Positions 34,536 to 41,802 of a stretch of DNA of 64,000 bases are shown one piece after another. The stretch is taken from positions 2,790,001 to 2,854,000 of the forward strand of contig CP073750.1 of the NCBI GenBank assembly GCA_024398135.1. Direction: 5' to 3'. The translations under genes were made by a program, and so were the position numbers. The notes beneath the pieces were generated by a model that was not told the DNA's origin, made no database searches, and worked only from the letters and a program-made list of their open reading frames with translations. How positions within the stretch are numbered: the stretch's first letter is position 1; the number at the start of each line of letters is the position of its first letter. This DNA is from a bacterium SCSIO 12643. GTDB taxonomy: Bacteria > Bacteroidota > Bacteroidia > Flavobacteriales_G > Salibacteraceae.

Positions 34536-35117
34536 ATGAAAATGGAAATTAATTCTGATTGTTTTGAAACGTTTCCCATATTGCGTACTCCTAGATTGGA
34601 GTTGCGTGAAATCCTATTGGAAGATGCACAAGCTATTTATGAAATGCGTGCCAATGGGCGTGTCAATCAGTTTATCCCCAGGCCGCAAATGACCGAATAT
34701 AAAGCCGCTAAAGAATTAGTGGAGAAAACACGAGCTGCTTATCAAAACAAACAAGTCATTGGATGGGCAGGAGTATTGCGAGATCAAAAGAAAATTATCG
34801 GCACCTGTGGGTTTAATTCTATCGATCGGTATAACCTGAGAGCGGAGATTGGAGGGGAGATGGACGTGAAATACTGGGGAAAGCATATTGCACAGGAAGC
34901 GGTTGAAGCTATTTTGAATTACGGATTAAACACCATGAATTTACAGACCATTGAGGCTAAAGTCTCCCCGGATAATCGAGGGGCGATATACGTCATGGAG
35001 CAATTGGGTTTTGTAAAAGAAGCACATTTCAAAAATCGGGTTTATTTTAATGATAGATTTGATGATATGGCGGTGTATACCCTACATAAAGGTGCTGAAA
35101 AATTTACCAGAATCTGA
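34536..35117 (+). CDS. GNAT-family N-acetyltransferase (RimJ/RimL type)
   Basis: 193 residues (start at 34536 or the second Met at 34542). RimJ/RimL-like layout: TPRLELREI (about 18-26), WAGVLRDQKKIIGTCGF, the acetyl-CoA-binding MDVKYWGKHIAQEAVEAIL (Gly-rich and following helix) and an AKVSPDNRGAIYVMEQLGF motif. Such enzymes acetylate ribosomal proteins or small molecules; the substrate is unknown. The stop codon TGA overlaps the ATG of the next gene, indicating translational coupling. Confidence 0.88.
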   Translation: MKMEINSDCFETFPILRTPRLELREILLEDAQAIYEMRANGRVNQFIPRPQMTEYKAAKELVEKTRAAYQNKQVIGWAGVLRDQKKIIGTCGFNSIDRYNLRAEIGGEMDVKYWGKHIAQEAVEAILNYGLNTMNLQTIEAKVSPDNRGAIYVMEQLGFVKEAHFKNRVYFNDRFDDMAVYTLHKGAEKFTRI

Positions 35118-35533
35118 TGGAACAGGAAAGAGATCCATTAGACGATGTAATCGACAACTTTAAAGCGCGATTAAAACGGGCATTTCCCAGGCCGGTAATA
35201 GAGCGCCTGGCGCTCATTGTCATTGGATGGGTCTGTTTTATGTATGGCGCCAGTCAATATGGAAATGGAGGTTGTGATGGTGGGACTTGTACTGTAATGT
35301 TTGCAGTTCACGGACTCCCATATGTATTATCCTGGCTTTTGTTTTGGATTGCGTTTTCGGTGTATTCCAAAAACAAAATAGGTGCATATGTCATTGGAGG
35401 AATCTCTATTGTAATTAATGGAATTCTTTTAAGTGCCATAGAATCCATGGATGTATCAGAATTATATTATCCCGGGTTTATTTTGTTAGGGTTTCAATTT
35501 GGGGCTATCATTTATAAGCGCTATTTCAATTAA
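35117..35533 (+). CDS. Small integral membrane protein
   Basis: 138 residues with four hydrophobic segments (about 30-45, 62-80, 90-107, 115-133) after a charged N-terminus (MEQERDPLDDVIDN). Two cysteines lie in GCDGGTC in the first loop. No family recognised. It starts on the last base of the acetyltransferase stop (TGATG) and ends overlapping the stop of the convergent YHS gene by 4 nt. Confidence 0.7.
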   Translation: MEQERDPLDDVIDNFKARLKRAFPRPVIERLALIVIGWVCFMYGASQYGNGGCDGGTCTVMFAVHGLPYVLSWLLFWIAFSVYSKNKIGAYVIGGISIVINGILLSAIESMDVSELYYPGFILLGFQFGAIIYKRYFN

Positions 35534-36777: not shown

Positions 36778-37356
36778 ATGAAAAATATATTGATCATCAA
36801 TGGACATCCCCATAAAGAAAGTTTGAATTTTGGCTTGGCTGAAGCCTATAAAAAGGGAGCATTGGCTTCTGGCTATCAGTTAGAAGAAATCGTTATCGCA
36901 GATTTAAATTTTAATCCCAACTTGCAGTATGGCTATCAAAAGAGAATGGAATTGGAGCCGGATTTATTAGATGCCTGGGAAAAGATAAAACGGGCAGATC
37001 ATATGGTCTGGGTGCACCCGGTATGGTGGGGAGGATTACCGGCTATAACCAAGGGATTTATTGATCGACTGTTTTTACCCGGGTTTACTTTTAAACCCAG
37101 AGAGAATTCCGTTTGGTGGGATAAATTATTAACTGGAAAGACAGCTAGAATCATTGCGACCATGGATCAACCGGGATGGTATTACCGATGGATAAATCAC
37201 CAACCCAGTGTATATCAATTAAAAAAAGGAACCTTAGAATTTTGCGGAGTGAAACCTGTAAAAGTGTGTTATATCGGAATTGTTAAAACCGCGACCGAAA
37301 AACAAAGAGCGAAATGGTTAACGCAAGTCAAACAGTTGGGAATGAAAGGAAAATAA
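36778..37356 (+). CDS. NAD(P)H-dependent quinone oxidoreductase (flavodoxin-like)
   Basis: 192 residues of the NQO1/KefF/MdaB flavodoxin-fold type: ILIINGHPHKESLN (FMN phosphate-binding start), then WVHPVWWGGLPAITKGF, the family's most conserved segment, and a FTFKP loop. These enzymes reduce quinones by two electrons, protecting against redox cycling. It follows a Crp/Fnr regulator in the same direction, so it is probably that regulator's target. Normal length; no signal peptide. Confidence 0.88.
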   Translation: MKNILIINGHPHKESLNFGLAEAYKKGALASGYQLEEIVIADLNFNPNLQYGYQKRMELEPDLLDAWEKIKRADHMVWVHPVWWGGLPAITKGFIDRLFLPGFTFKPRENSVWWDKLLTGKTARIIATMDQPGWYYRWINHQPSVYQLKKGTLEFCGVKPVKVCYIGIVKTATEKQRAKWLTQVKQLGMKGK

Positions 37357-37407
37357 AAGTCCTAAATAAAACGCAACTTTAAGAAATTGTTTTCTTTTTT
37401 AGAAAAA

Positions 37408-37440
37408 TTGAAAATAATTTGAAAACTAAATATAGTTTTG
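37408..37440 (+). promoter_or_regulatory. Candidate promoter of the yitT leader
   Basis: TTG (37408-37410), 22-nt spacer and TAGTTTTG (37433-37440, exact TAnnTTTG). Expected start near 37446, within a few bases of the micro-ORF1 ATG (37451), so this mRNA would be leaderless. Confidence 0.5.
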
Positions 37441-37450
37441 CGCCAGAATT

Positions 37451-37513
37451 ATGAAACGGATGTCTCAATATAATCATATGTGTAAGTCGAATTGGAAACA
37501 ATATCGAGGGTAG
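37451..37513 (+). CDS. Micro-ORF1 (20 aa), possible leader peptide
   Basis: ATG to TAG, 20 residues, with the pattern KRM-SQYNHMCK near its middle. It starts almost on the predicted transcription start and stops 22 nt before terminator 1. Micro-ORF2 shares the pattern KR(M/L)..QY..N.MCK. Translation is not proven; the region could instead be a small non-coding RNA. Confidence 0.35.
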   Translation: MKRMSQYNHMCKSNWKQYRG

Positions 37514-37535
37514 AGACGTATAGATAAAAATATGA

Positions 37536-37571
37536 AAAAGCGTTCTTCTACCAGGTTGAACGCTTTTTTTT
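37536..37571 (+). terminator. Intrinsic terminator 1 of the leader
   Basis: A 10-bp stem AAAAGCGTTC / GAACGCTTTT with a 12-nt loop, followed by T-rich sequence. Same stem and loop sizes as terminator 2. Confidence 0.9.
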
Positions 37572-37587
37572 GGTCAAATAAATAGGA

Positions 37588-37707
37588 ATGGAAGTCATGA
37601 CAAAACGGTTAAATAAACAGTATAAACAGGTGAATAATATGTGTAAACATCAGAGGAATATGATGTGGATGCATTTGTCATGTGGGTCCGAATATCAAAG
37701 AGAATGA
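37588..37707 (+). CDS. Micro-ORF2 (39 aa), possible leader peptide
   Basis: ATG to TGA, 39 residues (a second ATG at 37597). AGGAATGG before the start gives a weak Shine-Dalgarno-like sequence. It contains the KR-L...QY...NNMCK pattern found in micro-ORF1, and stops 26 nt before terminator 2. No promoter lies between terminator 1 and this ORF, so it depends on read-through. Confidence 0.35.
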   Translation: MEVMTKRLNKQYKQVNNMCKHQRNMMWMHLSCGSEYQRE

Positions 37708-37733
37708 ATCAATAAACGAAATATAAATTGAGG

Positions 37734-37771
37734 AATCCCTTTGGTTAAGTATAATCAAAGGGATTTTTTTT
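37734..37771 (+). terminator. Intrinsic terminator 2 abutting yitT
   Basis: A 10-bp stem AATCCCTTTG / CAAAGGGATT with a 12-nt loop and a run of eight T. The T run ends 13 nt before the yitT ATG, leaving no room for a further promoter unless it overlaps the hairpin. Confidence 0.9.
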
Positions 37772-37784
37772 GAACTAGAGTAAA

Positions 37785-38639
37785 ATGAAAAACATAATTG
37801 CGCTATATAATAATCCATATAACCTTTTGCTTTTGCTTAAGAGTTATGGTTTGGTGTTTTTAGGATCATTGGTATTGGCCATTGGTTACGTGGTTTTTAT
37901 TGTACCCCATCATATTGTTCCCGGTGGGATTTTTGGTTTAAGTATCGTCATCAATCATTTGGGTGGTTTATCAGTAGGTACCATTGCATTGTTGATTAAT
38001 ATCCCCTTGTTATTGTGGGGAGCAAAGGTTTTGGGAAAGGAAACCGGAATAAAAACGGCCTTTTCCATGGTGATGGTGAGCGTTTTGATCGATGGTATAT
38101 CGGTTTTAACAGGAGGACGAATCTATGTAAATGATGTTTTGGTATCATCTATATTTGGTGGGATTCTGATTGGATTGGCCGTGTTTATTGTCATGGGAGC
38201 AGGCGCCACCACCGGAGGAAATGATATTTTGGTAAGAATTATTTCCAGATGGGTGAAACTACCATATAGTTCTCTGATTTTGATTGTAGATGGTGTTGTG
38301 GTTTTATTGGGAACCTATGTGTTTGAAGATTTTACAATGGCTGCATATTGTATCATCGCTATTGTCTCTATTAGTAAAACCATTGATCACTTTTTGAAAA
38401 AGAGTAATCAGAATCAAACAGTTTTGGTTTTCTCAAAAAAGAATAATTCTATTAAGAAAGAATTGGAGTCTCATGAAAGTATGAATAAAAGAATCTTGAA
38501 GTTGATTCACCATGATAGTAATGAAAAAATGATTCTGGTAACGAATGCCAATAAGCCAATTCATACGATTGAAGAGTTGATTTATAAAGTAGACTCTGAT
38601 GCTTATATCTCGGTACTGGATTCCAATTATCGCGTATAA
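37785..38639 (+). CDS. YitT-family membrane protein
   Basis: 284 residues: five or six membrane segments (about 15-190; LLKSYGLVFLGSLVLAIGY, HHIVPGGIFGLSIV, GAGATTGGNDILVRI) and a C-terminal cytoplasmic DUF2179 domain (about 205-280). The VPGGIFG and TTGGNDI glycine motifs are the YitT signatures. Function of the family is unclear, perhaps transport. It lies directly behind a two-hairpin leader, so expression may be attenuated. Followed by its own terminator. Confidence 0.9.
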   Translation: MKNIIALYNNPYNLLLLLKSYGLVFLGSLVLAIGYVVFIVPHHIVPGGIFGLSIVINHLGGLSVGTIALLINIPLLLWGAKVLGKETGIKTAFSMVMVSVLIDGISVLTGGRIYVNDVLVSSIFGGILIGLAVFIVMGAGATTGGNDILVRIISRWVKLPYSSLILIVDGVVVLLGTYVFEDFTMAAYCIIAIVSISKTIDHFLKKSNQNQTVLVFSKKNNSIKKELESHESMNKRILKLIHHDSNEKMILVTNANKPIHTIEELIYKVDSDAYISVLDSNYRV

Positions 38640-38771: not shown

Positions 38772-39626
38772 ATGAAAAGAACAATAAAATCAATATCCGG
38801 ACCATCCACCATTGATGGTGTAGTACCGGGAGTGCGCGGACAGAGTGCATTTCCAAATAGAGAATTAAAATCTATGAACCCATTTGTGATGTTAGATCAT
38901 ATTGGGGAACAACATGTGGGAGCTGATTATTTTGTAGATGGTTCAGATTCTGCACATCCGCATCGCGGTTTCGAAACCGTAACATTTCTTTTTGAGGGAA
39001 TTATGGATCATAAAGATTCGTTAGGAAATCAAGTAAGATTACGCTCAGGAGATGTGCAAAGAATGAATGCAGGAAGTGGAATTCAGCATGGTGGAGATTT
39101 CAGAAGTGATCCACATTCTCAGTTATTTCACGAAGTACAATTGTGGGTAAATCTTCCAGCAAAAGAAAAAATGTCAATTCCGGGAATCTTCAATGCGAAG
39201 GTTCATGATATTCCGGTTTATGATCTGGAACATGGAAAAATCAGAGTAATAGGAGGCGCATTTGAAGGTCTGGAAGGTCCAATTCGTACCATTCAGCCAA
39301 CACGATTGTTACATGCCATTTCAAAGCAAAATCAAAAAATGACTATTTCGGAAATTGCTTCGGATCATAATATGTTGATCTATGTTTTAAAAGGAAATAT
39401 TCGAATCGAAGACCAGGAAATTTCACAGCATCAAGCCATATCACTAAATAATGAAGGAGACCATCTGGACCTGGAATTATTAGACAAATCTCAGGTGTTA
39501 ATCGTGTCCGGGAAACCCATAGATGAACCGGTGGTTATGGGTGGTCCGTTTGTGATGAATACCGCACAGGAAATTGATCAGGCATTTGAAGATTTTCAGG
39601 CAGGAAAATTTGGAGCGGTTAAATAA
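38772..39626 (+). CDS. Pirin-family protein
   Basis: 284 residues, two cupin barrels. Metal-site residues of the N-terminal cupin are in HPHRGFETVT (two His) and GSGIQHGG (His), with EVQLWVNLP closing the barrel; the C-terminal half is degenerate, as usual. Pirins are metal-dependent (Fe) proteins, some with quercetinase activity, often linked to redox stress. First gene of a tight operon: next gene starts 9 nt later. Confidence 0.88.
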   Translation: MKRTIKSISGPSTIDGVVPGVRGQSAFPNRELKSMNPFVMLDHIGEQHVGADYFVDGSDSAHPHRGFETVTFLFEGIMDHKDSLGNQVRLRSGDVQRMNAGSGIQHGGDFRSDPHSQLFHEVQLWVNLPAKEKMSIPGIFNAKVHDIPVYDLEHGKIRVIGGAFEGLEGPIRTIQPTRLLHAISKQNQKMTISEIASDHNMLIYVLKGNIRIEDQEISQHQAISLNNEGDHLDLELLDKSQVLIVSGKPIDEPVVMGGPFVMNTAQEIDQAFEDFQAGKFGAVK

Positions 39627-39635
39627 AAGGAAATT

Positions 39636-40964
39636 ATGAGTGCAACTTCAAATTTTGGAACTGAACGAATCAGTAAATTATTGTTACAGCAAGCTATTCC
39701 CGCAGGAATAGGAATTTTGGTGTTATCAATTTATAGCCTGGTCGATACCATTTTTATTGGGAGATATATCGGAGGGATTGGTATTGCAGCAATTACAATT
39801 GTTTCACCTATTACATTTTTAGTCTCGTCCATTGGTTTGGGGATAGGAATGGGCGGAGGCTCACTAATTTCTTTGAATCTGGGAGAAGGAAATGTAAATC
39901 GGGCAAAACAAATTCTTGGAAATCAGAGTTTATTAGTGCTCTTGTTGAGTGCAGTAATTATGGGCCTTGGGTTTCTGTTTTATGATGGAATCTTACAAAT
40001 GTTTGGTGCCCGGGGAGCATCTTTATTAGCGTCTCAGGAGTATTTCTTTTTTACACTTTGGGGACTCCCATTTTTTATGGGACAGATGATGCTCAACAAT
40101 GTTTTACGTGCAGAAGGGAATGCGCAAGCGGCCATGATTGTTTTGGGTTTACCGTCAATTATTAATATTCTCCTGGACGCTGTTTTTATCATCGTTTTAG
40201 ATATGGGATTAAATGGAGTAGCTTTGGCTACCGCGTTATCACAAGCTATTGGAGTGATAATAGGTGTGATTTTTCTACTGCGTAAAAGTCAGATAATTCC
40301 TTCACTTTCTGATTTTAAATGGAGCACCAAATTGGTGAAATCAATTGCGGGATTAGGATCTGTTCAGTTTTTGAGTCAGGCGACCATGAGCATTGTAGTT
40401 GTATTTGCCAATAACCTATTGATGAAATACGGTGGAGACCTGGCTATTTCTGCATATGGATTGGTGATCAGAATTACCATGTTTGCGTTTTTTCCGGTGA
40501 TGGGAATCGTACAGGGTTTCATGCCCATCGCGGGATTTAACTATGGCGCTGGGAAGCAAAACCGGGTAAAAGAAGCGATTCATAAATCATTTTTGAGTTC
40601 TACAATCATTGCATTTTCAATCATGATTTTGGCCATGTTGGGTGCTGAAAGTATTGTAGGTGTTTTTACAGACGAATCTGATCTGATACTAATGGCTTCT
40701 GTGGTGATGTATTGGGTTTTCTCAGCATATCCGTTATTGGGAATTCAGCAAGTCAGTACAGCATATTTTCAGGCTATAGGAAAGGCACGACCTGCACTTT
40801 GGTTGACATTGGTAAAGCAAATCATATTGATTCCAACTTTATTTATTCTGCCATTGTTTTTTCAGTTAGATGGCATCTGGTACGGCTTTCCGATTTCTGA
40901 AGTGAGTACGACTCTTATTGCGTACTCTTCTTTTAGAAGAGAATTAAAATTAAATCAAGCATAA
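39636..40964 (+). CDS. MATE-family efflux transporter
   Basis: 442 residues with twelve hydrophobic segments. MATE features: SIYSLVDTIFIGRYIG near the N-terminus, GLGIGMGGGSLISLNLGEG in the second helix pair, and MPIAGFNYGAGKQNRVKEAI mid-protein. MATE pumps exchange cations (Na+ or H+) for cationic drugs or metabolites at the inner membrane. It lies between two pirin genes (gaps of 9 and 10 nt), an unusual order. Confidence 0.92.
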   Translation: MSATSNFGTERISKLLLQQAIPAGIGILVLSIYSLVDTIFIGRYIGGIGIAAITIVSPITFLVSSIGLGIGMGGGSLISLNLGEGNVNRAKQILGNQSLLVLLLSAVIMGLGFLFYDGILQMFGARGASLLASQEYFFFTLWGLPFFMGQMMLNNVLRAEGNAQAAMIVLGLPSIINILLDAVFIIVLDMGLNGVALATALSQAIGVIIGVIFLLRKSQIIPSLSDFKWSTKLVKSIAGLGSVQFLSQATMSIVVVFANNLLMKYGGDLAISAYGLVIRITMFAFFPVMGIVQGFMPIAGFNYGAGKQNRVKEAIHKSFLSSTIIAFSIMILAMLGAESIVGVFTDESDLILMASVVMYWVFSAYPLLGIQQVSTAYFQAIGKARPALWLTLVKQIILIPTLFILPLFFQLDGIWYGFPISEVSTTLIAYSSFRRELKLNQA

Positions 40965-40974
40965 TTAGATCAAA

Positions 40975-41802
40975 ATGGAAAAGAGAGGATTATTAAAATT
41001 TCAAGAACCTAGAAATGGGATACAATATATTGTGAACACTGACATCAGAACAGAATTAAAACCATTGGTGTTTTTTGATGCGGGTAAATTTACCAGATCA
41101 GATGATGGTTTTACCATTGGGTATCATCCACATTCCGGGATCGGAATTATTACCTATTTTCATGGAACAGATTTACACCATAAGGACAGTGCAGATCATC
41201 CTGGAGTTATTCATGATGGTGGCATGCAATGGATTCGTGCCGGAAAAGGAGTGTGGCATGAAGAAGGTTATCATCGAAAACATAATGCGCAAACTACCGG
41301 AGAATGGACGGGGTCAATTCACCAACTTTGGATTCAGTTACCTCCAGAGCTAGAAGAGAGTGAGGTAGTGTACGAGAATTTACCATCGGACGAAATTGCT
41401 GTTCATGATCATGTGAAAGTACTTGCAGGAACTTATCAGGGGGTGAAGGGAAAAATTGACTTACCGATAGAAATGACCTATTTGGATGTCTCTCTTAAAG
41501 CCGGAGAGACCTGGAAATTTGAAACACCAAAAGGTCAAACTACAGGATTCGTTTTTACACGTGACGGGGCCATAAAATTGAATGAAGAATTAATTGAGAA
41601 TAATAAAATGGCCATCCTGGAACATAAAGAAGGAGTGTTACAGGTAGAAGCACACAATGAAAACTCAAATTTTATAGTGGTTTTAGCTAAGCCGGAATCA
41701 TATCCATCGGTAACACATGGAGGTCAGATTCATACCAATGAAGAATCACTTTTAAGAAGTCTGGAACACATCAAAAAAATAGGGGGAGACCTTAAATCAT
41801 AG
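40975..41802 (+). CDS. Second pirin-family protein
   Basis: 275 residues, again bicupin. HPHSGIGIITYFHG and GKGVWHEEGYHRKH carry the likely metal His residues, DLHHKDSADHPG is the family's 'hkDs.g' motif, and FVFTRDGAIKL marks the C-terminal cupin. Only distantly similar to the first pirin (38772), so these are not a recent tandem duplication. Last gene of the operon; YceI downstream has a promoter of its own. Confidence 0.85.
   Translation: MEKRGLLKFQEPRNGIQYIVNTDIRTELKPLVFFDAGKFTRSDDGFTIGYHPHSGIGIITYFHGTDLHHKDSADHPGVIHDGGMQWIRAGKGVWHEEGYHRKHNAQTTGEWTGSIHQLWIQLPPELEESEVVYENLPSDEIAVHDHVKVLAGTYQGVKGKIDLPIEMTYLDVSLKAGETWKFETPKGQTTGFVFTRDGAIKLNEELIENNKMAILEHKEGVLQVEAHNENSNFIVVLAKPESYPSVTHGGQIHTNEESLLRSLEHIKKIGGDLKS

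Follow-up and report, generated by a model that had tools for sequence, protein, structure and literature searches.

The leader described here lies in a window of 64,000 nucleotides (the whole stretch of DNA that was analysed) taken from the 4.12-Mb single-contig genome of the bacterium SCSIO 12643, a member of the Salibacteraceae. In this window, 428 nt of leader lie between a gene of the Flavodoxin_2 family (36778–37356) and yitT, which encodes a membrane protein of the YitT family. The comparison set consisted of three species of one genus, the window genome (G000) and two congeners (G001 and G002) whose YitT proteins are 69 and 70% identical to that of the window. By eye, the sequence directly behind yitT looks unlike among the three species. 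The structure model of YitT had a mean pLDDT of 43.5, too poor for a fold search, and comparison with solved structures gave a single match at chance level (E 0.47). Searches of the openly licensed literature turned up no description of YitT-family function and no paper on a yitT leader, and the available portions of PMC10434189, PMC10533825, and PMC6516651 give no function for YitT. A second yitT in the same genome (G000:C1:4080393-4081193, L025) is 29% identical and has no leader terminators. Downstream of yitT, two pirin genes are located on the same strand either side of a MATE-family gene (window 38772–41802), and upstream a 138-codon ORF (35117–35533) matches no Pfam family at E 0.001. 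Inspection by eye of the stretch from the end of the Flavodoxin_2-family gene up to the leader promoter (37357–37432) showed no obvious terminator, so transcripts of that gene might also enter the leader. The elements of the leader, with the gene itself, are the following.

37433–37440, + strand: -7 promoter element TAGTTTTG, of the TANNTTTG type, the sole + strand TANNTTTG in the 400 nt before yitT
37451–37513, + strand: short leader ORF uORF1, 20 codons, MKRMSQYNHMCKSNWKQYRG; start, length, and stop identical in the three species
37487–37507, + strand: hairpin within the last part of uORF1, GNRA loop GAAA (G001: GAGA), from the three-species consensus fold
37509–37519, + strand: antiterminator 1, 5' arm, enclosing the uORF1 stop codon (37511–37513)
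37536–37571, + strand: terminator T1, stem 37536–37545/37558–37567, 10 bp, 12-nt loop, T run
37540–37552, + strand: antiterminator 1, 3' arm (37540–37544 and 37547–37552), overlapping the 5' stem and loop of T1
37597–37707, + strand: short leader ORF uORF2, 36 codons (congeners: 38 and 37)
37694–37703, + strand: antiterminator 2, outer 5' arm (37694–37700 and 37702–37703), the last uORF2 codons before the stop
37708–37732, + strand: antiterminator 2, inner helix (37708–37713 with 37727–37732), innermost pair variable
37734–37771, + strand: terminator T2, 14 pairs (37734–37747/37752–37765), 4-nt loop, T run, ending 13 nt before yitT
37736–37745, + strand: antiterminator 2, outer 3' arm (37736–37737 and 37739–37745), overlapping the 5' stem of T2
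37785–38639, + strand: yitT, 284-aa YitT-family membrane protein (PF02588, E 2.1e-49)

The TAGTTTTG copy fits the Bacteroidota -7 element TANNTTTG, and both congeners carry TAATTTTG as the -7 element. At -352, -353, and -352 from the yitT start in the three species, the element bears out the promoter that the initial annotation had placed at 37408–37440. The refined F. johnsoniae -7 consensus, TAHHTTTG (PMC6847099), disfavours the G in the copy of the window; the congener copies fit. Transcription is predicted to start at about 37445, the start site in F. johnsoniae being 4–5 nt from the -7 element (PMC6847099). A sigma-70 scan listed 13 sites against 11.7 expected and is uninformative by itself; among them is a TTGAGG-TATAAT site (37728–37755) overlapping T2, a case for which the initial annotation had allowed, but its TATAAT is not preserved in the congeners. 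The further claim that no promoter separates the two units agrees with the lack of any TANNTTTG match in unit 2 (+ strand, 400 nt before yitT). A search of relatives for the same order of elements before yitT had been proposed as a check, and both congeners have it, with order and spacing to yitT preserved within 1 nt across the three species. The 20-codon ORF followed by a hairpin with a 10-bp stem, 12-nt loop, and T run is as first described. Other details needed correction: the second ORF is present with an aligned, shared start at 37597 rather than at 37588 (39 codons), and the second hairpin, a real one with its T run at the distance from yitT given before, has 14 pairs and a 4-nt loop rather than 10 bp and 12 nt. 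The term "duplicated" suits the layout of the leader but not its sequence, and ATGTGTAA, common to both units in the window, is absent at both congener loci (G002 by eye).

Both terminators are found between a short ORF and yitT in all three species. The T1 stem lies at -246, -246, and -245 relative to the yitT start with energies of -13.2, -15.7, and -16.5 kcal/mol, and the T2 stem lies at -50 in every species with energies of -16.3, -17.8, and -17.3 kcal/mol. Neither was listed by a simple terminator scan with a loop limit of 8, T1 having a 12-nt loop. A compensatory change is present in the T1 stem and in the T2 stem, and another T2 pair is changed on both sides in one species and broken in another. 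Because spacing is kept to 1 nt in three species and both terminator stems hold compensatory changes, in contrast to the dissimilar sequence directly behind yitT, the leader is conserved beyond chance.

The two short ORFs have conserved starts, frames, and stops in all three species and are conserved in different ways. Bacteroidota initiate translation without Shine-Dalgarno sequences. An A is found at -3 and at -6 of uORF1 in each species, and such bases favour initiation in F. johnsoniae (PMC6847099). The RNA of unit 1 is strongly conserved, also 3' of the uORF1 stop codon, and the block at about 37485–37521 is nearly invariant in nucleotides, third codon positions included. In uORF2 no out-of-frame columns occur between species and the reading frame stays open. 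Between pairs of species, however, uORF2 differs at 23, 20, and 13 second codon positions against 15, 18, and 11 third positions, and the greater number of differences at the second position suggests that selection does not act on the peptide sequence. The distance from T1 to T2 is constant at 195–196 nt despite the differences in uORF2 length. Translation of the uORFs is probable, with the A residues of uORF1 and the open frame as indirect pointers.

Each terminator has a conserved, predicted alternative fold, the two being mutually exclusive. Antiterminator 1 has standard pairs in 32 of 33 pair cells and antiterminator 2 in 44 of 45 (hand alignment). The uORF1 stop codon lies inside the 5' arm of antiterminator 1, and that of uORF2 (37705–37707) directly behind the outer 5' arm of antiterminator 2, between this arm and the inner helix, so that in both units the footprint of a ribosome finishing the ORF could reach an arm. 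When the transcript was folded up to the terminator loop with the ribosome held upstream, the antiterminators were the minimum-energy fold in 3/3 species. In ribosome-free folding, antiterminator 2 formed in all three species and antiterminator 1 in two; unit 1 of G002, in which a change in the T1 loop weakens antiterminator 1, took a different fold. Placing an unpaired ribosome footprint over the stop codon abolishes the antiterminator, a loss that follows from the imposed constraint. The antiterminators (-7.5 to -12.8 kcal/mol) are less stable than the terminators (-13.2 to -17.8 kcal/mol), and they would therefore need to win by forming first.

The statistics for these folds are modest and come from three species. 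When the columns of MAFFT alignments were shuffled, 8 of 1000 shuffles equalled the consensus fold of unit 1 and 5 of 1000 that of unit 2 (1 of 1000 with the hand alignment of unit 2), in regions picked after the folds had been viewed and with shuffles that do not preserve dinucleotides. Single sequences are weak, in that 7 to 256 of 1000 shuffles fold equally well. Covariation with both sides changed is found at no pair of antiterminator 1 and at one pair of antiterminator 2 among the three species, the closing pair of the inner helix, where two species have U-A and the remaining one G-C. A simple duplex between the uORF region and the terminator arm was not significant (31, 30, 104, 158, 154, and 85 of 500 dinucleotide shuffles); this test is blind to the inner helix of antiterminator 2, which whole-transcript folding then revealed. 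A candidate anti-antiterminator of unit 1 (about 37460–37466 with 37513–37519) was rejected, 3 of its 7 pairs being broken in G001.

The composition of the leader peptides is unusual and is kept among the species. The pool consisted of 165 codons after the starts, from two uORFs in each of three species and hence not independent, and was compared with 51 genes of the window. Met shows the largest excess (10.9% against 2.4%), and His (7.3 against 2.3%), Cys (3.6 against 0.8%), Trp (3.6 against 1.4%), and Asn (12.1 against 5.9%) are also enriched; Val is reduced to 0.6% from 6.2% and Asp is absent. The peptides are rich in Met, His, Cys, Trp, Asn, Gln, Lys, and Arg and nearly without Val, Ile, Leu, Thr, Ala, Gly, and Asp. 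Under a dinucleotide model without stops, none of 150 simulations matched the low count of Val, Ile, Leu, Thr, Ala, Gly, and Asp (18 observed, 63 expected), the high count of His, Asn, Gln, Lys, Arg, and Trp (87 against 54), or that of Met, His, Cys, and Trp (42 against 24). Met alone gave no strong excess in the individual uORF2s (56, 23, and 49 of 400). The enrichment of an amino acid declines with its frequency in genes (Spearman -0.66, p 0.0015). Codons ending in T outnumber those ending in C by 61 to 3 (15.9 with C expected), and codons ending in G stand at 35 to 41 ending in A, with G in excess (20.6 expected). Codons that end in T rather than C, or in G rather than A, are read by wobble. 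A brake made of rare codons was rejected: the six uORFs do not stand out from gene windows by a low mean codon frequency, which was as low or lower in 483, 799, 431, 1273, 1362, and 585 of 3000 such windows. Neither uORF has a single-codon run that would serve as control codons for the product of a regulated pathway, a feature that defines the subclass of amino-acid operons and not drug-sensing attenuators.

Leaders of similar organization were sought in 464 kb of the same genome (20 stretches of 20 kb and the window, about 11% of the genome). Of 14 candidates with a uORF, a terminator, and a gene, 3 are the yitT leader itself (one a sub-frame), and in the other 11 the fraction of Val, Ile, Leu, Thr, Ala, Gly, and Asp is 0.23–0.52, compared with 0.05 and 0.16 in the yitT leader. 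One of the candidates, at L080:12300-12477 on the minus strand, is a 45-codon Cys-rich ORF (Kazal-like by eye) directly before a terminator. The available portions of PMC4833913 and PMC12190993 hold nothing bearing on leader composition. A composition that is kept while the sequence drifts offers a simple criterion with which generalist leader peptides may be sought elsewhere.

Within the searches of the family, the class, and yitT-family loci, the leader was found only in this genus. When 35 genomes of the family were scanned with a covariance model of unit 1, 10 of them yielded 18 places in all at an E limit of 0.1. Three of these places are the yitT leaders, with E at or below 1e-29, and 15 are weak (E 0.003 to 0.083). 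Read by eye, 11 of the 15 weak places (all except L034, L037, L039, and L046) are ordinary gene-end terminators. A 23-base core with up to 3 mismatches was present in 7 of 395 class genomes including G000, as was a reversed control pattern (7 of 395). Within the genus, a 21-base core pattern was found at yitT in 3/3 species and at one 3-mismatch place in G002. The unit 1 core ATATCGAGGGT also occurs before the yitT paralogue of G001 (L024, about 1217), where there is no terminator, and is probably there by chance. A further 22 yitT-family loci, including two paralogues from the genus itself, were compared; none has two terminators in the 400 nt upstream, and 3 of the 22 (L006, L010, and L011) have one. 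Four further yitT loci (26–33% identity) are by eye without a comparable leader. Among 247 class genomes, of which G000 is the sole genus member, the best YitT outside the genus is 33% identical (cut-off E 1e-25), and two 8-residue patterns run against a named genome collection returned 2 loci, both of them the congeners.

Overall, these features point to a leader composed of two ribosome-mediated transcription attenuators in series, a reading to which a probability of about three in four is given from the comparison of sequences and folds. The initial annotation had proposed a two-step attenuator in which translation or a ligand decides read-through into yitT; the translation branch gains support from the conserved, mutually exclusive antiterminator at the stop of each uORF, and the ligand branch gains none, the window having 0 Rfam matches at gathering score (4227 families). 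In the proposed scheme, RNA polymerase would start near 37445 and a ribosome would load on uORF1. A ribosome arriving promptly at the uORF1 stop would cover the 5' arm of antiterminator 1, T1 would fold, and transcription would end. A ribosome lagging in the body of uORF1 would leave the arm free, and antiterminator 1 would then capture the 5' arm of T1 and the polymerase would continue. The identical choice would be repeated at uORF2, antiterminator 2, and T2. The gene would be transcribed only after both had been passed, which would amount to an AND gate with low leakage, the two gates being expected to multiply. We infer the direction of the response (prompt shuts, lagging opens), the AND logic, and the signal.

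With no single control-codon run and with scarce residues in its place, the likeliest signal would be a general slowing of elongation, caused by shortage of several charged tRNAs or by a ribosome-targeting drug; this is a plausible signal, if somewhat short of an even chance. The mixed peptides suggest that a lag almost anywhere would count, and hence that the leader may gauge elongation speed. A more specific form of this proposal, held more tentatively still, is that the peptides are selected for composition and not sequence, that the two serial attenuators are gated by stop codons, and that YitT synthesis is restricted to times when elongation is slowed over many codons. The make-up of the peptides in this proposal is one of scarce residues, many N/S side chains, and many codons ending in T or G. 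If true, such a gauge would give YitT a physiological context, and the signal to which the leader responds would offer a first clue to the role of the protein.

Other readings keep the serial attenuators and change the signal. The supply of one amino acid might be sensed, likeliest methionine as the residue in largest excess, with the other residues as filler; this is unlikely, as the enrichment extends to His, Cys, Trp, Asn, and Gln, the depletion affects seven common residues, only one Met follows the start in uORF1 of G001, and no codon forms a run. Similarly doubtful is induction by a ribosome-targeting drug in the manner of bmrCD, which would link YitT to drug tolerance. YitT is, to our knowledge, not a known resistance protein. 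The MATE gene further downstream (39636–40964) would suit a drug response but is separated from yitT by a terminator and a pirin gene. Leader-peptide attenuation before a membrane protein is known for the exporter BmrCD (PMC4191407), and a YitT-family gene was non-synonymously changed in three macrolide-selected mutants of Mycoplasma pneumoniae (PMC10240068). The latter change is a lead and nothing more, and the available text of that paper names no role for YitT.

Readings that dispense with attenuation fare less well. The two units might yield small RNAs or small mRNAs that end at the hairpins and have products acting elsewhere, with yitT under an unseen promoter of its own. Under any model, termination at T1 would release an RNA of about 125 nt and termination at T2 one of about 325 nt, and the conservation of unit 1 as RNA beyond its stop codon would fit. 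Yet unit 2 lacks a TANNTTTG promoter, the uORF2 peptide sequence is not conserved, and the conserved antiterminators would be purposeless in a plain small RNA, which makes this quite improbable. Lower again, and very improbable, is a ligand- or protein-binding RNA of riboswitch type in unit 1 that sets read-through with the ORFs incidental. The nearly invariant block is what speaks for it, but the GNRA hairpin, together with the antiterminator arm, accounts for that block, nothing like it is present in unit 2, all three species preserve the start, length, and stop codon of uORF1, and the Rfam families gave no match.

Two ribosome-mediated attenuators in series, if this reading is right, would be a compact and testable pair in Bacteroidota, a phylum in which leader-peptide attenuation has been noted in the openly licensed literature and not dissected. 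Like the trp and his attenuators, the yitT leader has a uORF, a terminator, and a competing antiterminator, and a lagging ribosome favours read-through in those systems (trp: PMC4191407). Unlike them, it has two in series and no control-codon run, and its gene has no known biosynthetic role. The bmrB leader of Bacillus subtilis similarly places a leader peptide, a terminator, and an antiterminator before a membrane protein, BmrCD (PMC4191407). It differs in having a known drug response and one terminator, located inside the bmrB coding region, whereas the yitT terminators are 3' of the uORFs (PMC4191407). Slow codons in bmrB raise read-through, and codon optimisation did not abolish the drug response (PMC4191407). 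The likeness to tet(M) of Tn916 is a lead only. The tet(M) leader peptide is rich in scarce amino acids, and its response to translation speed may run in the opposite direction to that of the yitT leader. The tet(M) attenuator (orf12) is relieved by tetracycline or other translation inhibitors (PMC9154091). In Flavobacterium psychrophilum, "strong clues" have led to the proposal that amino-acid operons are controlled by leader-peptide attenuation (PMC9723704), and sORFs in long 5' UTRs have been reported in Bacteroides thetaiotaomicron (PMC7366714); the available portions of both accounts name no yitT leader. Tandem terminators, one with a clear potential antiterminator, occur in the rimP leader of some Gammaproteobacteria, which is described by its terminators with no uORF pair named in the available text (PMC2965389). 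In layout only, the yitT leader is a tandem attenuator, with a separate attenuator for each of its two short ORFs. In this it resembles the mgtCBR leader of Salmonella, which its authors call a singular example and in which two short ORFs, mgtM and mgtP, are each tied to stem-loops controlling downstream transcription (PMC3641672). The mgtCBR ORFs differ in what they respond to, ATP in one case and proline-charged tRNA in the other, and proline codons abound in mgtP, unlike the yitT uORFs with no single-codon run (PMC3641672). The class of mechanism is known, and what is new is the gene, the phylum, the stop-codon-gated layout used twice, and leader peptides in which composition is kept.
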